Positions 12,280 to 36,778 of a DNA stretch of 51,905 bases are shown here, one piece after another. Made by a program: the position numbers and the translations under genes. Within the stretch, counting starts at the first letter, position 1. Every line of letters begins with the position of its first letter. The notes beneath the pieces are model-generated. The model ran no database searches. It saw only the letters and a list, made by a program, of their open reading frames with translations, and was not told where the DNA came from. This DNA is from an uncultured Flavobacteriales bacterium (GTDB lineage: Bacteria; Bacteroidota; Bacteroidia; Flavobacteriales; BACL11), in NCBI GenBank assembly GCA_913031595.1, contig CAJWCP010000007.1, positions 1-51,905 of the forward strand, read 5' to 3'.

Positions 12280-12918
12280 TTAAATGTCATAAGATAATTT
12301 TGCCAATAAAATAAATAAAGTATAAGGATCTTCAACTTGAAGCTCCTTCTGAATCCGGCAAGAAAAATTAAAGTCTGTATTTTTAAAAATAGGATATGAT
12401 ACGCCAAGAGTATATCTTATCTTATTTATCATTTGTAAATCACGTAAAAAATATTCAAAAGCAAATTCAGGCTCTAGCTTTGTCTTTCTTATATTATAAT
12501 TTAAGAGTAATTGTTGTCTAAATGTATTTGTAAATGCGTTGTAATTCCCCTGTCTTTGAAACCTCTTTCTCGAAGCAAACCAGAATCTATTTATCTTTTT
12601 TTTTACAACTAAATCAGAATAATATCTAAATACATGATCTCTTTCTAGTTGCTGATTCCATTCATGAATATCTCGCAGACCTATTAATAATGATATCCTC
12701 TTATTATATTTATATTTAATCTTTAAATCTGTATAAATCTTTGAAAGCAATGAGCTGTTCTCTCTAAAACGAATTCCTTGTTTTAAATATAAATTAACTT
12801 TTTTTGAGGCTTTATAATTTAATGAAACTGAAGACCAAACTTGCAAATCACTCTCTTGTGAGAAAACAGAAAAAGAAAAAAGATATAAAACTAATATACT
12901 ATTCCGTATCTTCCTCAT
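12280..12918 (-). CDS. DUF2490-family predicted outer membrane protein
   Basis: About 212 residues from the ATG at 12918. A longer version from a TTG at 12960 would bury the signal peptide MRKIRNSILVLYLFSFSVFS. The mature part is made of alternating strands rich in aromatic and charged residues (e.g. VWSSVSLNYKASKKVNLYLK and RFWFASRKRFQRQGNYNA), consistent with a small beta-barrel and with the DUF2490 family. It lacks a lipobox and a T9SS domain. Its start overlaps the end of the DUF4956 gene by about 20 bases, so it is the last gene of the DUF4956/VTC/CotH cluster. Function unknown. Confidence 0.75.
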   Translation of the reverse strand: MRKIRNSILVLYLFSFSVFSQESDLQVWSSVSLNYKASKKVNLYLKQGIRFRENSSLLSKIYTDLKIKYKYNKRISLLIGLRDIHEWNQQLERDHVFRYYSDLVVKKKINRFWFASRKRFQRQGNYNAFTNTFRQQLLLNYNIRKTKLEPEFAFEYFLRDLQMINKIRYTLGVSYPIFKNTDFNFSCRIQKELQVEDPYTLFILLAKLSYDI

Positions 12919-13540
12919 AATAGAAAATTCGCAAATTAGCAGTGTCTCGAAGAAAATCAATTCTCCTTACCTCTACACGAATAACATTAATACCTGTTCT
13001 TTTCTTAAGGTCAGCAAGCAATTCTTCTCTTCTATCAGGCATTATTAATTCAATCTTCTCATAGGTAATATTTTTTCTACTTTCATGTCTTAATAACCAT
13101 AGCCTTTCCATTCCATAAGTAATAAACACAATCATGAAATTTGCAAAAACAAGTTCTGCATGACTAATCTTCTTATTTGAAAGAGCATTTACAACAGAAA
13201 TACCAATAACCAAGAAAAGATATGTCATCTCCTTAATAGGTATAGGATCTGTACGATATCGTATAATACCAAAGATTGCAAAAAGTCCTAAAGCAAATCC
13301 TAATTGAAGTTTAACACTATCAAGTAGTACACAAAGAAGAAAAACAGTTAGACTAATAAGAAAATAAGTAAATAAATAATCTTTATTCTTAGTAGCCGGA
13401 TAATAGATATATCTGATTATAATCGTAATAACCAGTAAATTAAAAAACGTCTTAACTATTAACTCCCAAAAATCTTCTGAGTCAAAAACAGGAATTCCTA
13501 AGAATTCCATACCATCAAGTAAAATAAGTAATAAGTCCAT
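12899..13540 (-). CDS. DUF4956 membrane protein
   Basis: 213 residues. Four or five membrane helices occupy about 25-46, 53-93, 103-120 and 126-149, and a soluble C-terminal domain of about 60 residues follows (DRREELLADLKKRTGI, then RVEVRRIDFLRDT). It matches DUF4956, a family of unknown function that is often encoded beside VTC-type polyphosphate polymerase and CotH proteins. Its ATG overlaps the stop of the VTC gene in TAATG, a sign of translational coupling. Yeast Vtc proteins join a catalytic tunnel to membrane helices in one chain, so this protein may supply the membrane part for the soluble VTC protein. That is inference. Confidence 0.83.
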   Translation of the reverse strand: MDLLLILLDGMEFLGIPVFDSEDFWELIVKTFFNLLVITIIIRYIYYPATKNKDYLFTYFLISLTVFLLCVLLDSVKLQLGFALGLFAIFGIIRYRTDPIPIKEMTYLFLVIGISVVNALSNKKISHAELVFANFMIVFITYGMERLWLLRHESRKNITYEKIELIMPDRREELLADLKKRTGINVIRVEVRRIDFLRDTANLRIFYYEEDTE

Positions 13541-14289
13541 TATGCTTTTTTTAATTTATTAATAAATAATAATTTCTCTTTAAATCTATTCTTCTTTATC
13601 CCTTTATTAAGATATAAAGTAGACATACAGTATTTGCTTAATCGAATTGGCAAGATACTCATTTCTTTTGCAATTCTAATAAAATCTGAGGACCTACTCA
13701 TTCTTTCTTGTTTTACTTCTGCAATTACAATCTCCTTAAAATCTCCAGATTCCTTTTTATTTTTAAATGTTAAATCAATATCAATGGTTAAACGCTCCTT
13801 ATGAACTCTATGTACTAAAGTAAGACGACTAAAATTAATCCATTGTTTTGCCTCCACATCAATATCTTCACCTATTATCTTATAAATATAATTCTTATGT
13901 TCAGTAGTTAATTCTTCTGAGATGGAATCAACCTTCATCCTTTTCTTAATTGTTTTCTTTTTATTATTCTTTAATTTAATTTCTAAAAAAGATATTCCAC
14001 TACCAACATATTCTCTAAATCTAATCTTATTTCGGTTAACTCGCTGATTATGATGATCAAGATAAAATTTTAAATCATTCGTATCATAATATAAAGACTT
14101 ATATTGATGTAATGTTTCACCATCGATATGTAACATACGATAGAAAGGATTAATTCTCTTTAGAAGTATTGGAAGTTTATTGGCTGAAAAGGCAAATTTA
14201 GTATCAGTTCTACTCATCAATTTTACGCCATCCATTTCAGATAAAGAAATAGGTGAAAAATCAGATATTATTTCAGGAAAATTATTCAT
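13540..14289 (-). CDS. VTC-type polyphosphate polymerase domain protein
   Basis: 249 residues, entirely a VTC/CYTH-like tunnel-fold domain with no SPX domain and no membrane segment. Conserved basic and acidic positions are visible: SRTDTKFAF near residue 26, YYDTNDLKFYLDHHNQR, NRNKIRFREY, FLEIKLKNNKKKTIKKR, RLTIDIDL and IAEVKQER. In yeast Vtc4 this fold makes polyphosphate from ATP. Bacterial homologues are annotated as polyphosphate polymerase domain proteins, but their product is largely untested. It is coupled to the DUF4956 membrane protein downstream (TAATG) and begins directly after the small lipoprotein gene. It would act in the cytoplasm at the membrane. Confidence 0.87.
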   Translation of the reverse strand: MNNFPEIISDFSPISLSEMDGVKLMSRTDTKFAFSANKLPILLKRINPFYRMLHIDGETLHQYKSLYYDTNDLKFYLDHHNQRVNRNKIRFREYVGSGISFLEIKLKNNKKKTIKKRMKVDSISEELTTEHKNYIYKIIGEDIDVEAKQWINFSRLTLVHRVHKERLTIDIDLTFKNKKESGDFKEIVIAEVKQERMSRSSDFIRIAKEMSILPIRLSKYCMSTLYLNKGIKKNRFKEKLLFINKLKKA

Positions 14290-14706
14290 TTATTGATTTC
14301 TTTCTATAACAAAATCATCAACACTTCTAATAGTATTATTTGACTCTATAGTTACTTGCTTAAAAACAGGATAGTCGTAATTAATCATATCAACATCTGT
14401 ACTGTCAGCATAGGTGTAAATAATATAATCACCTTTTCTTAAATACTCAAATCTATATCTACCATTATAATCAGTCTCAAACTTGTCATCATAAATATCT
14501 TGAGGATCATTAGAATAAATTATAAATACATCTTTTCCTGAATCTAACTGATAGTATGAAGTATCTAAAAGTCCTGTATTAGGATTCTGAAAAGTGAAGA
14601 TCTTATAAACCTGTCCTTCTATTACTGAAGTACCTCCTTCACCAGGACCTTTCTCACAAGAAAAGAATCCTATTAATATCATAAAGATTAATAACCCCTT
14701 TTTCAT
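14290..14706 (-). CDS. Small lipoprotein with carboxypeptidase-regulatory-like fold
   Basis: 138 residues. The signal peptide MKKGLLIFMILIGFFSC ends in a lipobox-like GFFSC (Cys17), so lipid anchoring is predicted. The mature domain (VIEGQVYKIF, TDYNGRYRFEYLRKGDYIIY) resembles the beta-sandwich called carboxypeptidase regulatory-like, or a SpaA/Cna-B relative, used in surface proteins as a spacer or binding module. It lies 2 bases after the first CotH gene and abuts the VTC gene. Its role is unknown; the position suggests a partner at the outer or inner membrane for the CotH-VTC cluster. Confidence 0.75.
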   Translation of the reverse strand: MKKGLLIFMILIGFFSCEKGPGEGGTSVIEGQVYKIFTFQNPNTGLLDTSYYQLDSGKDVFIIYSNDPQDIYDDKFETDYNGRYRFEYLRKGDYIIYTYADSTDVDMINYDYPVFKQVTIESNNTIRSVDDFVIERNQ

Positions 14707-14708
14707 AA

Positions 14709-16913
14709 TTACTGTTTTATAATTTTAACTGTTTGATTATCTATTTTAACAAAATACACACCATCTTCCCAGTCACTTATATCAATGGTATTCACATTAT
14801 TCTTTTCATAAATCTTCTGCCCCATCATATTAAATACAGTTATCATATCATGAGCGCCTAAGATATATATTCGATTATTTGAAGGGTTAGGATAAATACG
14901 AATATCTGAATTAACATCAGAATTATTTATCACTGTAGCAGTTTGATTACTACCATCATAAGTATGTCCTTGATAACGCATTATCCCTGTACCATTAGGA
15001 ACTCTCGCATAACCTTTATCTATCTGCATATTAACAAAATGAACAGCATCAATAGTTACACCAGTAGGATCACTAAGATACACCTCTTCTTGATCAGCAG
15101 ATAAACGATAAGTAGTATGTAAACCTGCCTGAGAACTACCAGCAGTATCACACCAAATAATTAAATAATCGTTAGCTCCTATAGTAACATTAGGAAAACT
15201 CCATTTTGTTAAATCATTCTCACTATCTGATAAATAATAACCATTCAAATTAAGATCGAAATTATTACCATTATAAAGCTCAACCCAATCATCATATTCT
15301 CCATCCTGATCTGATATGGCAGACAAGTTGGAAGCCATAATCTCATTAATCACCAAACCACTTACAACTGCTAATTGATGAAATTCTTTTTCTGCTCTTT
15401 GAGGGGAAAAAATTCCTGCATCAATATTTTCTGCATAAAAATAATATTGAATATCACGTGCATCAACATCTATTGTTGCACCAAACACCCCATCTCCTGC
15501 ATTCCCATCGCCATGATTACCATCATCAAACATTTGCAATTTCTCAAATTTATCAGCAAACTTAAATCGATAACCAATATATGCATAATTAGTGTTACTA
15601 ATCTCAGCAGTAATATTCACTGTTGTATGTGGCAACACACTAGTAGGATTAGAAGAAATATTAGTAATAGTTGGAGGAGTAGAAGAAAACTCAGGCAAAT
15701 TCTGCAAAAAAGATGTTCGAGTACTCATCAATTCTTCGATACCTATAATATTTCCAACAGAATTATTTATGTTAGATGTAAAATCAGAATAAGAAAAAAA
15801 TGTATTTGGATCAGACATTATATAATTATTAATTATTCCTTGTAAATCTAATGCTCTAGTAGTATAATAATTATTTAAAAATAATTCATCTAAGATTGTA
15901 CGCATATGTGCCACATACATTTTCTTATATCTGTCATTAGAAAAGATCTGAGTAGTTAGTATATTTAGCGGATCAGCAGCATTATGAAATATATCTAATT
16001 CTTGCAAATCACTATTAGAAATAGGTGTAGGCAAACCATTAGTAAATACTCCAAATGCCATATTCATATCCCATAAGACAGGTGAAAATCTACCATTATT
16101 ATCTTGAAATAAATAAAAGTTATGAGGAATAGTATTAATGGGTCCGTCTAAACATACTGTTACGTTTTCAAAAGCCATCATCCATAAAGCTCTATCAATA
16201 TCCATTACATCCTCAATGTTAGTAAAGTAATTATTTAATGTATCCAAAAAGTTGCCTAATTTTGTCCAATCATTAGAAGATTGCATCTCATATGCTCTCT
16301 TATAACAATTTGTATCTGCATAATATTGTAATACACCTAACTGTCCAAAGCATCCTGGCACTGTTACGCCAGTATTCTCTACCTTAAATAAAGGTCCTTT
16401 TCTTTCATAAAACTGCTCATTAGTAAAATCATCATCAATAGATTGTACGCAAGTATATAATCCAAGCAAAGTGCCATTCACAAATACATTAGCATAAGTT
16501 GCTTTTGGTGCTGGCATATATTCTCTAGCCATCTCATACGCTAAAACCTCACGAATAAAAGCAGGGTCTCTAAAACCATTCGATAATTTAAGGACATTAT
16601 AACCATCTATAGATTGTCCATTATTTACATAATCTAACTTTATATTCATTGGATTCTTAACATTATTCACATTATAAGAACTATTCCCTTTATACTTAAT
16701 GCCAACATTCTGATCTGCTATTCCGTCAATTAAAATAGAGTCTGCTATTAATCGCTCTCCTAAATTATTTGCATAATATAAGTCTAATGAATCATCCCAA
16801 TTAGACTGACTGAAAAATATTTCTATTTGACGAACTCCAAGATCAAAAACATCTTGAGAAAAAGACATTACACTTAAAAACAAAAAATATATAACTAAAA
16901 TAATTCTTCTCAT
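14709..16913 (-). CDS. CotH kinase family protein with lamin-tail and T9SS sorting domains (paralogue A)
   Basis: About 734 residues from the ATG at 16913, which begins the signal peptide MRRIILVIYFLFLSVMSFSQ. A longer in-frame ATG at 16970 lies inside the upstream gene. A CotH domain spans about 25-400, with GIKYKGNSSYN, NPMNIKLDY, LKLSNGFRDPAFIREVLAYE, HNFYLFQDN and LWDMNMAFG (Asp282). CotH proteins are atypical secreted kinases that phosphorylate proteins. A loop-rich segment with FDDGNHGDGNAGDG follows, which may bind calcium. Then come a lamin-tail domain (LVINEIMASN, DDWVELYN) and a C-terminal T9SS type A domain (IYPNPSNNRIYI, DGVYFVKI). It should be exported to the surface. It is closely related to the gene at 17993-20233. 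Confidence 0.87.
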   Translation of the reverse strand: MRRIILVIYFLFLSVMSFSQDVFDLGVRQIEIFFSQSNWDDSLDLYYANNLGERLIADSILIDGIADQNVGIKYKGNSSYNVNNVKNPMNIKLDYVNNGQSIDGYNVLKLSNGFRDPAFIREVLAYEMAREYMPAPKATYANVFVNGTLLGLYTCVQSIDDDFTNEQFYERKGPLFKVENTGVTVPGCFGQLGVLQYYADTNCYKRAYEMQSSNDWTKLGNFLDTLNNYFTNIEDVMDIDRALWMMAFENVTVCLDGPINTIPHNFYLFQDNNGRFSPVLWDMNMAFGVFTNGLPTPISNSDLQELDIFHNAADPLNILTTQIFSNDRYKKMYVAHMRTILDELFLNNYYTTRALDLQGIINNYIMSDPNTFFSYSDFTSNINNSVGNIIGIEELMSTRTSFLQNLPEFSSTPPTITNISSNPTSVLPHTTVNITAEISNTNYAYIGYRFKFADKFEKLQMFDDGNHGDGNAGDGVFGATIDVDARDIQYYFYAENIDAGIFSPQRAEKEFHQLAVVSGLVINEIMASNLSAISDQDGEYDDWVELYNGNNFDLNLNGYYLSDSENDLTKWSFPNVTIGANDYLIIWCDTAGSSQAGLHTTYRLSADQEEVYLSDPTGVTIDAVHFVNMQIDKGYARVPNGTGIMRYQGHTYDGSNQTATVINNSDVNSDIRIYPNPSNNRIYILGAHDMITVFNMMGQKIYEKNNVNTIDISDWEDGVYFVKIDNQTVKIIKQ

Positions 16914-16918
16914 AATAT

Positions 16919-17989
16919 TTAATCTAATCCTATTATCATTTTTGAAATTCCTGTAGTCGTTGCAACCCATATATTATCATCTAAATCAACAGCTATACCT
17001 TTTATATTTGGACCAGCTAAACCATCAGAAACATCATAATCTACCCATTCCAATCCATTCCAACAAGCCACACCTCCTTCTGCTAAATAACCGACATAAA
17101 TAGCTGCCCATATCCTATCCCAATTATCGATTGCTATCTCAACAACTGGATTTAAAGTGTCTGGAGGAGGCATTAAATACATTCTTGTATAATGCGTGAA
17201 AGCTGTATTATCAATGTTTAATACAGAAATTCCACCACCAGTACCTATCCACTTATTACCTTGACTATCAATTATTAAATCTGTAACATTCTGTGATATT
17301 AAACCATTTGCAGTGTCATACACATCAAATATATTATTAGAAGCATCATGATTTGTAACTCCTCCTAAAGGATGAGCAAACCAATGAGAATTAAAAGTAT
17401 GTGCTACCGAAGTAACTCCACTCCAATGTAAATCTGGAGAACTAATAGAACCCCACTCTCCATCATAATAAGAAACACCTGTTGCTGTACCTATCCAAAC
17501 ATGATCAGCAATAAGAGACTTGTCTATAGCTTTAATTTGATTAGAATTAAGACCATTAGACGAGTTATATATATTCCAATTAGTTCCATCAAACTTACTA
17601 GCTCCAAAATCTGTTCCTACCCATATATCACCGTTATCCATTGCACTAATAACCTTAATGTTATCATTAACTAATCCAATAGTATTACTAGTATTATAAG
17701 TTGTCCAAGTAGTACCATCAAACTTTTGCACTCCACTAGATGTTCCAATCCAAATATTATTATTAATATCAACAGTTATACATTCCACAAAATTATCAAG
17801 AAGACCATCTGAAGTAGTATAGTTCACAATAGCAGAAACAACCCCTGGATTGTTTGCATAAATACAAGACCCATCATTAGACATTGCTAATGGATCAAAA
17901 TTAGTTGCGCTAGGATCTGTACACCCCTCTTTTTTGCTACACGCATTCAACAAAACAAACAAACATATAATAAAACTGATTCTTTGCAT
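16919..17989 (-). CDS. Propeller lipoprotein (two-component-regulator propeller repeats)
   Basis: 356 residues. The signal peptide ends in a lipobox LLNAC (Cys17). A short cysteine-bearing segment follows (CTDPSATNFDP, then NDGSCIY), a motif seen repeatedly in secreted Flavobacteriia proteins. The rest is a chain of about seven propeller blades with repeated N/D-I-W-I/V-G/A-T patterns, such as NNIWIGTSSGVQKFDG, GDIWVGTDFGASKFDG and NKWIGTGGGISVL. Such blades usually sit in the sensor part of hybrid kinases, but no kinase or membrane segment follows here, so it is a free lipoprotein. It lies between the two CotH genes, 5 and 3 bases from them, and probably binds a partner or glycan on the surface. 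Confidence 0.83.
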   Translation of the reverse strand: MQRISFIICLFVLLNACSKKEGCTDPSATNFDPLAMSNDGSCIYANNPGVVSAIVNYTTSDGLLDNFVECITVDINNNIWIGTSSGVQKFDGTTWTTYNTSNTIGLVNDNIKVISAMDNGDIWVGTDFGASKFDGTNWNIYNSSNGLNSNQIKAIDKSLIADHVWIGTATGVSYYDGEWGSISSPDLHWSGVTSVAHTFNSHWFAHPLGGVTNHDASNNIFDVYDTANGLISQNVTDLIIDSQGNKWIGTGGGISVLNIDNTAFTHYTRMYLMPPPDTLNPVVEIAIDNWDRIWAAIYVGYLAEGGVACWNGLEWVDYDVSDGLAGPNIKGIAVDLDDNIWVATTTGISKMIIGLD

Positions 17990-17992
17990 ATA

Positions 17993-20233
17993 TTAAATCT
18001 TAATCACTTTTATGGTCAAGCTACTGTTAAGCAAAATTACAAAATAAACTCCGGAATGCCATTCAGATGTCTGAATATGATTAACATGATCAAAATGACC
18101 AACCTTTCTTCCTAAAACATCTAGTACTATTAAGGGTTCATCGGTATGCAAATATAAAATGTCATTAAATGGATTAGGATAAATAACCAAATCTTGTTCT
18201 AAATTAGAAACTAAGTTAGGAAAATCATTATTTGCTCTAAAAGTGGGAGTTAACATTGTAAATGATCCAGAGCCATTTGGGCTTCTACCAAAAGAAACAT
18301 CATCTGCCTGAGCAAGAAAAGTAATAGAATCAATAATCGAACTATCAGAATTAGACAATACAAGTAGTTCTCCTAAATTCGATAATTGAAAATTTGCATG
18401 CTCTTCACCCTGACCTCCATCTTCATCAGCCCAAATAATAGAGTACGAATTAGGCTGGATTATATGATTGGGCAAATTCCATTTATGAAGATAAGCAAGC
18501 GTGTCTGTAATAAACAATCCATTTGTTGAGATTGGAGAAGATGTTGTATTATATAATTCAATCCAATCCTCATATTTTCCGCTATTATCAGTGACTACAC
18601 TTATGTTATTAGACATAACTTCATTTATAACTAAATCTCCTGGCTGAATCGTAGTTTGCAAAGTATAATAATCGTAAGCTGCTCTCTCTGGAGAAAATAC
18701 GCCTGCAGAATCATTCTCTGCATATAAATAATAATCTATTGAATTACTAGCATTACTTATCTTAACTCCATATACACCATCTCCTGCAAGACCATCATTA
18801 TGATTACCATCATCAAATAATTCTTTTTCTCTAAATATTTGATTCTTCCCAAATCTGTATCTTACACTCACAAAATTAGCATCTATAATGTCAGCTATAA
18901 TCCATAAATCATTACCTAATATTAAAGTAGAATAATTAATGTTAGATATTGTAGGTTCACCAAGATATCCTGGAAAAACACTCAAATACGATGTTCGAGC
19001 ATTCATCAGCTCTGTAATACCAGGACAAACTGAAGCGACTAATGTAACCTGACTTGTTAGGTTAGCAATAAAATCTGCATAAGTATAAAACTTGTTTGTA
19101 TCGTTCTGCACATACTGATCAATCACATTCTGCATATGTTGACCTCTGATAAAATAATCTTGATTAATAAAGTTTTCTTTAATGATCGTACGTATATGTG
19201 CCAAATACATTCTTCTATATCTTTCATTAGCAAATATCTTTTTCATTAATGGTCTTGGTGATACAGACATAAAAGCATGATGTGTTAATGGATCCATATC
19301 CTGAGCTTGAGATATATCAAATCCATTAAAATATAATTGAGAGGCATCAGTAAGTCTAAAACCTCCAAAAGACATATTAAGATCCCATATTATTGGGTTC
19401 CATTGACTAGCTTGATCTTCATACAAGTAGTAATTCTGGGCATAACCAATATAAGAGTCAAAATTTATTAACGTATAATTAAGCGCATGCATCCAAAGTG
19501 TTCTATCAACATTTAAAACATGATGCAAACTATCTGAGACATTATTTAAGGTGTCTATGAATTGATATAATTCTGCCCAACCATGATTAGATTTAATATT
19601 ATAATATGGATAATAATCAATACTATCTATCCCATGAGTATTACTTAAGTTGGAATTCTCACCTCCTATCTGTATGTTAATATTATCAGGATTACATTTA
19701 AAAAACGGATTATACTTACTATCAAAATGATCAATTAAGAAATCTTTATTAACTGCCTCTACATTTGTATATAACCCCCATAAAGTGTCATTAATAAATA
19801 TATTAGCATAATTAGCTCTTGATGAAGGCATATATTTACGATATATTTCATAACTAAGAACCTCTCTGATAAAAGAAGGATCCTGAATCACGTTAGATAA
19901 TTTTAACTTATCGATGCCTTGATGGTCTTGCCCTTCAATAATATAATCTAATTTAATATTGAAAGGATTCTTTAAACGATTCACACTTACAGAGCTAAAA
20001 CCCTTATATCGAACTCCAACACTATCATAATAATTCCCATCTATCTCTATATCTGCTAGAATTCTTTCATTTTCTCCTAACACATAAAGACTATCTAATA
20101 AATAATCCCAATTAGAATCATAAAAACTAATACGAATCTCTCTTACAGTATCAATATTATAGAAGTTGTTCTGAGAAAATAAATAATAAAATGATATAGA
20201 AAATATAAATATAAAAAACCTTCTAAATAACAT
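17993..20233 (-). CDS. CotH kinase family protein with lamin-tail and T9SS sorting domains (paralogue B)
   Basis: 746 residues. A signal peptide (about 1-20) is followed by a CotH domain at about 25-405: GVRYKGFSSVS, NPFNIKLDYI, LKLSNVIQDPSFIREVLSYE, QNYYLYEDQ and IWDLNMSFG (Asp284). A loop with FDDGNHNDGLAGDG, a lamin-tail domain (LVINEVMSNN, EDWIELYN) and a T9SS type A tail (LVIYPNPFNDILYL, SGVYFVIL) complete it. The domain order and many segments equal those of the protein at 14709-16913, so the two arose by duplication. Both have Asn where many CotH proteins have a second Asp (WD-x-N). It abuts the sulfotransferase-like gene with no gap. Confidence 0.87.
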   Translation of the reverse strand: MLFRRFFIFIFSISFYYLFSQNNFYNIDTVREIRISFYDSNWDYLLDSLYVLGENERILADIEIDGNYYDSVGVRYKGFSSVSVNRLKNPFNIKLDYIIEGQDHQGIDKLKLSNVIQDPSFIREVLSYEIYRKYMPSSRANYANIFINDTLWGLYTNVEAVNKDFLIDHFDSKYNPFFKCNPDNINIQIGGENSNLSNTHGIDSIDYYPYYNIKSNHGWAELYQFIDTLNNVSDSLHHVLNVDRTLWMHALNYTLINFDSYIGYAQNYYLYEDQASQWNPIIWDLNMSFGGFRLTDASQLYFNGFDISQAQDMDPLTHHAFMSVSPRPLMKKIFANERYRRMYLAHIRTIIKENFINQDYFIRGQHMQNVIDQYVQNDTNKFYTYADFIANLTSQVTLVASVCPGITELMNARTSYLSVFPGYLGEPTISNINYSTLILGNDLWIIADIIDANFVSVRYRFGKNQIFREKELFDDGNHNDGLAGDGVYGVKISNASNSIDYYLYAENDSAGVFSPERAAYDYYTLQTTIQPGDLVINEVMSNNISVVTDNSGKYEDWIELYNTTSSPISTNGLFITDTLAYLHKWNLPNHIIQPNSYSIIWADEDGGQGEEHANFQLSNLGELLVLSNSDSSIIDSITFLAQADDVSFGRSPNGSGSFTMLTPTFRANNDFPNLVSNLEQDLVIYPNPFNDILYLHTDEPLIVLDVLGRKVGHFDHVNHIQTSEWHSGVYFVILLNSSLTIKVIKI

Positions 20234-33423: not shown

Positions 33424-34191
33424 TTAACTCTTACTCTTAATCAGTTTTTTAACCTGTTTCTTCTTCACATCTTTAGGAGATGTTTCTAACAATAGTTGAT
33501 CAACATCCTCAAAAGTAATAATGCCAGCATCAATTGATTCTAAAATTAATTCTTTTGCATTATCTTTAATACTAGGATTATCTATGATAGACTGTCTTTT
33601 TTGTGCTAACCTTCTCGCTTCTCTCTTTGCAGCTCTCTGTTTTTCAAGTTCTTCTTCCTTTTTTGCTCTTATTAAAGCTTCTTCCGCCTCTTTTAATTGT
33701 CTCTCTAACTCTGCTGCCTCTGCTGCTGCAATAGAATCTTTTATTGCTGTAGAATCAACAACAATCAATTCTTCTACAATAGGAGCTTTTTCCTTAACAA
33801 CAGGTTCAGGTTCATATACCTCCTCAGGCTCATACACCTCCTCAGGCTCATATATCTCCTCAGGCTCATATATCTCCTCAGGCTCATATATCTCCTCAAC
33901 AACCTCTTCAATAACCTCTTCAGGCTTTGGAGTATATCTCTGATAATCAGAAGAAGACCCTTCATTATAAACAATATCATCAGAAGGGTATTCTAATGTA
34001 AGGTCTGAAAAAAAGTTAGTTAACAAACCAAATATAGAAATATCAGTCTGAGTACTAATTGGTATAGAGGGTGTATTAATATAATCCGAATTTATAGAAG
34101 GATTATCCCATAATCTAAAGTTTATTCCAGTAGTATTGAATAAACTAAACAATACTACTGAAACAACTAATATTATAAAATTCTTTCTCAT
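33424..34191 (-). CDS. Anchored repeat-rich protein of unknown function
   Basis: About 255 residues from the ATG at 34191; a GTG two codons upstream is also in frame. An N-terminal hydrophobic helix (about 4-22) acts as signal peptide or anchor. Then come a Ser/Thr/Asn-rich stretch, an acidic region with repeats of YEPEEI/V (about 97-130), an Ala-Glu-Lys-rich charged helix (about 150-200) and a compact C-terminal segment (KELILESIDAGIITFEDVD, then SPKDVKKKQVKKLIKS). No known domain is recognised. It follows the fibronectin-type membrane protein by 7 bases and is probably co-transcribed with it. A strong terminator lies just downstream. A tether, or a rod spanning the periplasm, is a guess. 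Confidence 0.75.
   Translation of the reverse strand: MRKNFIILVVSVVLFSLFNTTGINFRLWDNPSINSDYINTPSIPISTQTDISIFGLLTNFFSDLTLEYPSDDIVYNEGSSSDYQRYTPKPEEVIEEVVEEIYEPEEIYEPEEIYEPEEVYEPEEVYEPEPVVKEKAPIVEELIVVDSTAIKDSIAAAEAAELERQLKEAEEALIRAKKEEELEKQRAAKREARRLAQKRQSIIDNPSIKDNAKELILESIDAGIITFEDVDQLLLETSPKDVKKKQVKKLIKSKS
33820..33891 (+). repeat. Four tandem 18-bp repeats coding YEPEE(I/V) units
   Basis: Four nearly identical 18-base units (CTCCTCAGGCTCATAnAn) fill 33820-33891, and a diverged unit precedes them (about 33802-33819). On the minus strand they encode YEPEEI/V hexapeptides. The repeat length is a multiple of 3, so copy-number change keeps the frame. Confidence 0.9.
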
Positions 34192-34198
34192 GATCACA

Positions 34199-36778
34199 TT
34201 ACATTATTAAACCTGCTATCATCCCAAATCCTCCCATAAAAAACATAGCAGAAAGGAACCAAAAAGTAAATGCAAGTAATGGTTGATTTTTGTTTTTTGC
34301 TTTTTCTTCATTAATTAATGACATAAAGTACCAAGGGTCTTTATCTCTAATAGTATATACTTTATAAAATAATGAAGCAATATACGACATTGCAATACTA
34401 ATAATCATTCCTCCAAATAAAGCAACAAATAAGATAGCGAATAAGAAAGCAAAATTCTTAAACACCTTTAACATAGTTCTTTGTGATTGATCATAATCAA
34501 TAAGAGAAGCAAACATATCTATTCTTGCGTTTGCAAAAACCAATTCTTCATTAAGAACTTCTAACTCTGCTTCTAGCTCATCAATCTTTTCTTGCATTAA
34601 AGTAGCTAAAGATTTGTCTTTCAAAGCAATCATTGCATTGCTCTTATTCTTTGTCACCTTACCTTTAATTCTATCGTAAGGCACCCAATCCCACTTCTTC
34701 GTATCATAGCCAAAGTTATACCACCAATCTACTAAAGCAGCCTTAAGTGTTGAGTTAACTGCAGGGTCTCGTGGTGTTCTTAAAGTAACTGTCCATCTTT
34801 TTGAACTTGATGGTTTTGAATCATCTATTCCAGCACCTTTTGCTTTAACACGGTACTCAAACTCCTTTCCTGGAGATTTTACACCTTCTTCAACATGCTG
34901 TGTTATATCTGCACCAACTGTTGCAAATTCATACCACTCTGCATTCTTCTCTTTTATAGCTCTTCTCTCAATACTAAATCCTGTTTCATTTCTAGAATTA
35001 TCATTCCAAGAAAATACAAGTCTAAAATTGTGTTCACCACTAATTCTTAAATTTGAAGGAGCAACTATATAATCTTTACTTATCGTATTAGACAATTTAC
35101 TACTCCATCCTGATTTACCACTCTTATTAACAACTTGAATACGATAATCATAAGATTTTCCTTGTGAAACATTCTGATCAATCATACTAGTTATATCAGT
35201 ACCTGTTTTTATGTTTTTCCAATCTTTCTCGCCTCCTTTCTTATCTTTTCTCTGTATTCTAAACTCCCACATCTGACTCTTATATTCAGTAATATGACTT
35301 TGAATTCTCTCAATCATATTCTCTGCATCTTCAATATCTCTAGAAATAGAAATACTATCCTGAATAGCACCATCAAGCATTCTTGGTAAATCTGCAGTAT
35401 AATCAGTTGAATTATTACTAAAAATAATCTCAGGCTGATCTATAACATTCTGGGGAAAAGACAAACCAAAAGAATTTTGCTTAGCTCTTACATTAAGCTC
35501 AATTGCATCCTCAAATAAATTTTCCATCTCATCCATATCATCTATAGTAAAAGTAGCTCTTAACGCATCAACATCATTATTAGCTTCTTGAATAGATTCT
35601 GCTATATTATTCTCTCTTACTGTAAGAGTCTGTGTTTTAAACGAATCTGAAGTTGAAATAGAAATATAAATTAATACTGTAGGAATTATTAAAGCTAAAC
35701 CTAACCATAAAGAACCTGGCACTAATGAAACCATTAACTGAATCGCCTTATCTCTTATTGCTCTTAAATAATTCATTACTGAATTTTGCATCAAAGTTGA
35801 CTCATCATTATATAATAAATGATTAGGAAAAATTGATTGAGCAAAAGATAAAACAACTAATGATAGTATTACTGCAGCTGATAAGAAAACATTTGTATTA
35901 ATTGCAACCCCTAAGAAAACTAAACCTAAATCAGGAATCCAGCTTAATAATAATAAAATCTGAATCGCTACAATGGAAACTATTGAAGCAAGAACATAAT
36001 GTAAAGCTGTTTTCATAACCTTAGATCCATGAAGACTATGATCTCTCTCATCTGTAAAATGTAACATAGAAGTTACTGTTCCATAAGCTTTAAGTATTGG
36101 TAAACTAGAAATAACTAATCCTAACATACCAAACACAGCATATCCTGTTAATATTGACAAATAAATAGAAAACCCTATAAGAGCAAGTGCATAGAATGCT
36201 CCCATAAAAGTAACTCTTAACTTACTCTTATTATAAGTGCCATTCAGTGCAAGGAAAGATGATTTATATAAATCCCAAGCCCACAATATACAATAATGGT
36301 ATAGAGACTTAAGAATCATCTTAATTGGCATCCAGAATATATTCCAGAACACCCAAATAATAGAACTAACAATCCATTTAATAATTTTCCATATTGGAAA
36401 TATTGTCTTAATAAACTCCCAAATTGGCTTAATAATATAGTCAATAATTGGTCTAACTATATACTCTACTATTAAGTCATATACTGTCTTAATCAGGTAA
36501 GCAAAGAAATGTGCAATAACAACAAATGCATACGCCGCCCAAACAAAAACATTGTAAATGAAAATAAGTGGAGCTATTATTAAAAGTAATAATGTCCAAG
36601 CATTCTTCAAACTTTTAACTCGATCTAAACCTATTATATAAGAAGGCTCTTCATTTCTATGTTTTGCAAATAAGAAACCTAATGTAGCAAAAGGCATAAA
36701 AGATAACAAGCAGGCAACAACAATAGCTACCCAAGTATCAGATGCGCTTAGATTAAGAATATCATAAAAAATTTCCAT
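34199..36778 (-). CDS. Large membrane protein with fibronectin III domains, unknown function
   Basis: 859 residues. The N-terminal part (about 1-380) has roughly eight membrane helices. One segment is very rich in aromatic residues (about 100-165: IVEYIVRPIIDYIIKPIWEF, then KTIFPIWKIIKW), which looks like amphipathic helices lying on the membrane. A coiled region (about 385-500) precedes two fibronectin type III domains (about 503-570 and 573-670; WEFRIQRKDKKGG, APSNLRISGEHNFRLVFSWN). A coiled coil (about 720-750, MQEKIDELEAELEVLNEEL) and two more membrane helices end the protein. I do not recognise the family. The fibronectin domains between membrane parts are unusual. It leads a two-gene unit with the repeat protein. 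Confidence 0.85.
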   Translation of the reverse strand: MEIFYDILNLSASDTWVAIVVACLLSFMPFATLGFLFAKHRNEEPSYIIGLDRVKSLKNAWTLLLLIIAPLIFIYNVFVWAAYAFVVIAHFFAYLIKTVYDLIVEYIVRPIIDYIIKPIWEFIKTIFPIWKIIKWIVSSIIWVFWNIFWMPIKMILKSLYHYCILWAWDLYKSSFLALNGTYNKSKLRVTFMGAFYALALIGFSIYLSILTGYAVFGMLGLVISSLPILKAYGTVTSMLHFTDERDHSLHGSKVMKTALHYVLASIVSIVAIQILLLLSWIPDLGLVFLGVAINTNVFLSAAVILSLVVLSFAQSIFPNHLLYNDESTLMQNSVMNYLRAIRDKAIQLMVSLVPGSLWLGLALIIPTVLIYISISTSDSFKTQTLTVRENNIAESIQEANNDVDALRATFTIDDMDEMENLFEDAIELNVRAKQNSFGLSFPQNVIDQPEIIFSNNSTDYTADLPRMLDGAIQDSISISRDIEDAENMIERIQSHITEYKSQMWEFRIQRKDKKGGEKDWKNIKTGTDITSMIDQNVSQGKSYDYRIQVVNKSGKSGWSSKLSNTISKDYIVAPSNLRISGEHNFRLVFSWNDNSRNETGFSIERRAIKEKNAEWYEFATVGADITQHVEEGVKSPGKEFEYRVKAKGAGIDDSKPSSSKRWTVTLRTPRDPAVNSTLKAALVDWWYNFGYDTKKWDWVPYDRIKGKVTKNKSNAMIALKDKSLATLMQEKIDELEAELEVLNEELVFANARIDMFASLIDYDQSQRTMLKVFKNFAFLFAILFVALFGGMIISIAMSYIASLFYKVYTIRDKDPWYFMSLINEEKAKNKNQPLLAFTFWFLSAMFFMGGFGMIAGLIM

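Follow-up and report, generated by a model that had tools for sequence, protein, structure and literature searches.

A gene pair of Flavobacteriales encoding a ten-helix FN3 membrane protein and a TonB/TolA-like rod, a candidate envelope tether

A 51,905-nucleotide stretch of DNA from an uncultured Flavobacteriales bacterium (contig CAJWCP010000007.1; hereafter the window) contains a gene for a large membrane protein and, directly behind it, a gene for a small anchored protein with acidic repeats, which raises the question of what two such proteins might do together. An earlier note, made from the letters of the sequence, had described them as a two-gene unit, had recognised neither protein as a known family, and had suggested that the pair might link inner membrane, periplasm and surface. 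The reading preferred here is that the pair may form a tether or transducer across the cell envelope, based on an unnamed family of membrane proteins; this function is predicted from the architecture of the two proteins and is given a probability of about two in five. The features of the unit are listed in Table 1.

Table 1. Positions of the two genes and their parts in the window.
Feature	Position	Strand	Description	Basis
Large gene	34199-36778	-	859 aa; ten-helix membrane protein with predicted periplasmic FN3 loop	ORF list, Pfam, hydropathy
N-terminal membrane core, residues 1-373	35660-36778	-	Portion common to the remote family	Alignment
Predicted periplasmic loop, residues 374-773	34460-35659	-	Helical segments flank the FN3 head on both sides	Helical part from a low-confidence model
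Two FN3 domains, residues ~500-650	34829-35281	-	Sub-threshold in relatives	Pfam
Last two helices, conserved QPLL motif between them	34202-34459	-	Chain stops here, without the tail of most remote relatives	Alignment, hydropathy
Small gene, anchored rod	33424-34191	-	ATG start, 255 aa	ORF list
Predicted N-terminal membrane anchor of rod	34126-34191	-	Without Cys or His	
Juxtamembrane patch, residues 25-75	33967-34119	-	Conserved in all five complete rods	
YEPEE spacer	33806-33898	-	18-bp tandem repeat, 5.2 copies	
Charged, probably helical segment, residues ~150-199	33595-33744	-		Sequence
C-terminal three-helix domain	33427-33594	-	Also ends a lipoprotein-like protein in G146	

Both open reading frames were found where they had first been placed, and the ORF list, hydropathy and Pfam agreed with the earlier description of the large protein as having about ten helices and two FN3 stretches. 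The FN3 profile (PF00041) scored 27.3 bits over these stretches, against a cut-off of 25, and 15.8-21.9 bits in three relatives, under the cut-off. It was the sole Pfam match above cut-off; no membrane family was matched, and no MotA/ExbB match appeared at E<=1. NCBIfam and PHROGs added no match for the membrane parts, nor did a membrane-core profile match any chain among PDB sequences. The claim that neither protein is of a known family therefore stands for the membrane part of the large protein in Pfam, NCBIfam, PHROGs and PDB sequences, and fails for the family of the small protein, of which the member in genome G060 carries a TonB_C domain. A literature search, narrow in its terms, returned no description of this large-protein family.

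The helix count was drawn from hydropathy averaged over 13 relatives together with the loop charges of the window protein, and reads segment 65-112 as two helices. Lysine and arginine were found in loops 34-64, 233-259, 316-352 and 800-838 (the inside, on a positive-inside reading) and were absent from segments 209-215 and 281-291 and from both termini. Since this charge pattern across about ten helices puts both termini outside, loop 374-773 with its FN3 domains is probably periplasmic. The long aromatic amphipathic segment of the earlier note was also present (residues ~97-176), and in the alignment the window and L002 versions were much longer than those of relatives. A structure model of the large protein, made from a two-row alignment (window and L002), had a mean pLDDT of 37.7 and was unusable.

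The gap from the large to the small gene is 7 bases if the ATG start is used; an alternative GTG start (33424-34197, minus strand) lies two codons, or six bases, upstream of the ATG. Membrane anchoring of the rod is predicted; the small protein may instead have a signal peptide that is cleaved off. The predicted anchor, the acidic proline-rich repeats and the charged, probably helical segment that had been described were all present, and the five YEPEE repeats proved to be a genuine repeat at the DNA level (18-bp unit, 5.2 copies, 94% match, TRF score 150). Across the five complete rods, residues 26-75 reached a total conservation score of 47.5, versus 20.1 +/- 6.3 in shuffles (0 of 200 reached the observed score), and when the G060 rod alone was shuffled the score of this juxtamembrane patch was reached in 0 of 1000 trials. 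Conservation of the spacer was not above that of shuffles, 10 of 100 of which reached the observed score. Its repeats vary by lineage: YEPEEI (18 bp) in the window, EEARLAAVVAE (33 bp) in L002 and G184, and SEEVITE (21 bp) in G131; the G060 spacer has mostly E- and K-rich runs of short period, and in that of G197 no tandem repeat was found. Repeat number also differs between close relatives, as the G184 rod (L121:7364-7843, minus strand), cut at its 5' end, has at least four 33-bp repeats versus 3.2 in L002.

The C-terminus of the rod is exchangeable, with a three-helix domain in four genomes and a true TonB_C in a fifth. The G060 rod ends in TonB_C (Pfam PF03544, E 3.3e-20; NCBIfam tonB_Cterm, 2.2e-13), and the other four complete rods end in a domain of ~55 residues that is predicted as three helices. 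PF03544 had no match in the window rod at E<=1 and none in the L002 and G131 rods at E<=0.1; the one PF03544 place in the G197 genome lies elsewhere than in the rod. G060 also has a second TonB_C gene, separate from the unit, and in each of the remaining four close carriers there is a single TonB_C place, outside the unit. G146 has the three-helix domain as well, as the C-terminus of a 400-residue protein whose start resembles that of a lipoprotein (contig 22; L122:5503-6705, plus strand), at E 3.8e-11 with a profile made without this protein and 1.9e-24 with one including it; the large gene was not found in the G146 genome. Among 196 genomes of the order, 5 gave a strong match to the domain and three others (G141, G161 and G138) a weak one; these weak matches, and three from an earlier search, were set aside. 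A model of the domain (pLDDT 74.5) had no Foldseek match in the PDB at E<=10. As a short helical C-terminal module on a membrane-associated protein it resembles SHOCT, as described in the pertinent passages of PMC3581485 and PMC11237479, but the SHOCT profile (PF22746) gave 12.4 bits against a cut-off of 27 (E 0.12, chance level), and the rod domain is predicted to be periplasmic, unlike the SHOCT-like domains that those passages of PMC11237479 place inside the cell. Some way past the TonB_C of the G060 rod (L056 7369-8400, plus strand), a lysine-rich run is encoded by a short-period AAG-type repeat, which is either a real tail or recent slippage.

The small gene comes immediately after the large one at every one of the five close-clade loci, and the two-gene members form one clade (support 100/100). 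Close relatives of the large gene were found in 4 of 52 genomes of the window's family, its own included, and in 1 of 10 genomes of another family of the same order, after one FN3-only match had been set aside in each (G204, one of five; G022, one of two). Order-wide, a full-length match was found in 4 of 196 genomes, five of nine matches being FN3-only and left out. The large gene was present in none of the 15 window-family genomes that are at least 90% complete, and the close-clade carriers are all incomplete MAGs. At a sixth locus, in G184, the small gene is cut at the contig end in a neighbourhood like that of the window, and no large gene was found in the genome. The surroundings of the pair differ among loci. 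A plug gene of the type IX secretion system (T9SS) and the nqr genes around it are common to the window, L002 and G184; in G060, unit and plug are separated by tgt, an LptF/G-like gene, mazG, apbE and nqr genes, and another large gene lies between plug and pruA (all but the plug named by eye). None of the window's other genes was matched in G131 (178-316 kb of the contig) or G197 (1-92 kb), and no neighbour gene common to all close loci was found. Because the pair was kept in five of five loci while its neighbours mostly differ, the two genes are a unit, and co-occurrence thus agrees with what had been read from the window. On G060 contig 13 (L056 15452-15998, L131 1-1283) the plug follows close behind nqrC, and the nqrA and nqrB of the window were unmatched in the examined G060 stretches, through either deletion or an assembly fault.

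Beyond the close clade, profile searches identified eight remote single-gene relatives in Bacteroidia that share the membrane core. Five were matched by the first profile (G243, G561, G453, G266 and G586; columns 118-307 and/or 705-835; best E 1e-8 to 2e-4), and G591 (5e-23), G302 (5e-17) and G135 (4e-42) by a later profile that already included the five remote rows. In the class search, 93 of 395 genomes matched, mostly in the FN3 columns alone; such matches were dropped as generic, and the five were kept for their match in the membrane columns. Weak matches were set aside, namely G264, G005 and G019, seven at E 8.4e-5 to 9.6e-4 (G005 and G019 again among them), and G039. A tblastn search with the window large protein gave L050, L051 and L078 at 5e-7 to 6e-6 (set of 13 loci), and the phylum-wide set of 395 genomes gave the window's own and one weak match (G039).

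These relatives differ in what the predicted periplasmic loop carries. An FN3 head is present in the close five and PKD_6 in G266 (E 2e-13) and G586 (1e-10), and the G302 loop has an insert resembling PKD by alignment. The loops of G243, G561, G453, G135 and G591 are headless, with 164-235 residues versus 392-402 in the close five. The ends of the chains differ as well: the five two-gene large proteins stop 22-37 residues past the start of QPLL, that is, with the last helix, and the eight single-gene relatives continue for 46-217 residues past QPLL, or 18-189 beyond the last helix. The tails are clearly acidic (27-34% D+E) in G243, G561, G135 and G591 and short in G453 and G302 (18 and 27 residues beyond the helix). 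By eye a SPOR domain was suspected in the G266 and G586 tails, but a Pfam search of these tails by themselves gave no convincing match and the idea was dropped. The ORF lists of seven of the eight single-gene loci (G561 left out) showed no member of the small-gene family beside the relative. By position and composition, not by sequence, the rod looks like the counterpart of the single-gene tail on an anchor of its own.

The nearest known comparison is with TonB and TolA. In the sections of a 2025 account that treat their build (PMC12204202), both consist of a helix, a disordered, helical or proline-rich spacer and a C-terminal domain; they carry an SHLS motif and a motor box, in TonB a beta-strand within the disordered stretch that follows the helix; among TolA/TonB-like three-domain proteins the spacer varies, and some have another C-terminal fold. 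The rod appears to follow the same plan, with an N-terminal helix, a juxtamembrane segment, a spacer that is freely exchanged between a proline-rich and a helical acidic form, and a small C-terminal domain; its conserved patch at residues 25-75 is at most a candidate for a motor box. However, residues 1-35 contain no histidine in any of the five complete rods; the SHLS (SxHxLxS) motor motif of those sections is therefore absent, as is any histidine in the anchor. Furthermore, the putative partner of the rod is the ten-helix FN3 protein instead of ExbBD or TolQR, four of the five complete rods end otherwise than in TonB_C, and no tolQ, tolR, tolB or pal was noticed in the ORF lists of the genes adjoining the unit. 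The predicted architecture is thus the TonB/TolA plan, but it lacks both the motor motif with its histidine and a partner of the ExbB/MotA type. The build would fit a rod that works like that of TonB or TolA, yet the rod was not filed as TonB because the SHLS motif is missing and the partner is not of the MotA/ExbB kind. The earlier note had likened the small protein to TonB and had treated a confident TonB-like match as counting against its own proposal; the G060 member has such a match, which favours the guess at function and takes away part of the novelty. The vWA force transducers of TolA/TonB topology that are described in part of PMC12204202 likewise combine the shared plan with a different C-terminal fold, but the rod had no vWA match and no tolQ-like neighbour was noticed. 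Compared by description, the TssNQOPR proteins of the Bacteroidota T6SS also pair a multi-helix inner-membrane protein with single-helix periplasmic proteins; TssN, however, has five helices and a cytoplasmic domain according to the portion of PMC10781749 that describes it, and no T6SS genes were noticed at the window locus.

On the preferred reading, the large protein would sit in the inner membrane and raise a helical stalk into the periplasm, bearing an exchangeable head, which is a pair of FN3 domains in the window protein and PKD or absent in relatives. The rod would be anchored beside it by one helix and by the conserved juxtamembrane patch, a putative docking site through which the two proteins may bind each other. 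The freely evolving spacer would then cross the periplasm and present the C-terminal binding domain to a target in the outer membrane or wall, with the pair either exerting force or serving as a tether alone; in most of the single-gene relatives a tail after the last helix would take the place of the rod. TonB and TolA couple the inner to the outer membrane, and the known versions run on one motor family. A broader proposal, speculative and quite unlikely on present evidence, is that Bacteroidia have a form of trans-envelope force transduction or tethering that does not run on the ExbBD/TolQR/MotAB motor, in which ten-helix proteins with head-bearing stalks drive or position TonB/TolA-shaped rods, fused or split by lineage. 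If so, the TonB/TolA rod plan would have been joined to another membrane machine, an unrelated ten-helix protein. Where PMC12204202 treats the group, tol-pal loci are not identifiable in Bacteroidetes, which would make a tether candidate there testable.

The conserved residues of the family lend themselves to a different reading. N76, W142, Y162 and P366 were invariant in 13 aligned rows and H161 nearly so, and this pattern (N76, HY161-162, the tryptophans and P366) in a protein of about ten helices would suit a member of an unnamed family of transporters, channels or membrane enzymes. Its FN3 or PKD heads, exchangeable or absent as they are, would serve only to position the protein or to bind a partner, with the small protein as an accessory spacer. 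This reading is doubtful, given that no such family rose above cut-off in the databases searched or among PDB sequences and that no shared neighbour accompanies the unit.

It is unlikely, too, that the pair is a passive mechanosensor or scaffold, which would sense or hold the distance from the inner membrane to the wall or outer membrane and produce no force. Lineage-specific repeat spacers, stalk-like loops of 164-402 residues and the absence of motor marks would all suit such a role; the TonB_C end of G060, on the other hand, is best known from active coupling, and the lack of a neighbour gene common to all close loci means that they share no regulator.

The tether or transducer reading also has to be set against the T9SS, since a plug gene adjoins the window unit (PF17116, 142 bits), as the earlier note had remarked. 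The plug is adjacent in three of six loci (window, L002 and L121), and SprA was found in 12 of 13 carriers, the miss being the window's own MAG (77% complete); with carriers alone counted, this figure is no measure of association. However, the three loci, from related genera, share a single syntenic neighbourhood. In G060 the plug lies ~8 kb from the unit with other genes between, and it was not found in the examined stretches of G131 (178-316 kb) and G197 (1-92 kb), so that a stable linkage of pair and plug fails. A full-length match in just 4 of 196 genomes of the order argues in the same direction. The adjacency is local and incidental to the pair, and a T9SS accessory was set aside as the leading interpretation for that reason, the plug being adjacent in no more than three of six loci, all in one neighbourhood; such a role is considered improbable.

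An anti-phage or other defence pair, which the patchy distribution and exchangeable heads might suggest, is highly improbable: PADLOC gave at most a chance match on both window proteins (E 0.18), G243 matched defence models over its helical loop region alone (best E 7e-4), and housekeeping genes surround the window unit. A viral, plasmid or phage origin was also considered and rejected, with no match in viral, plasmid or phage collections. Elsewhere in the window (12899-20233) lie two long proteins that look alike, at 14709-16970 and 17993-20233; by their appearance we take them to be CotH-like, and their neighbours are presumably VTC-like and DUF4956-like.
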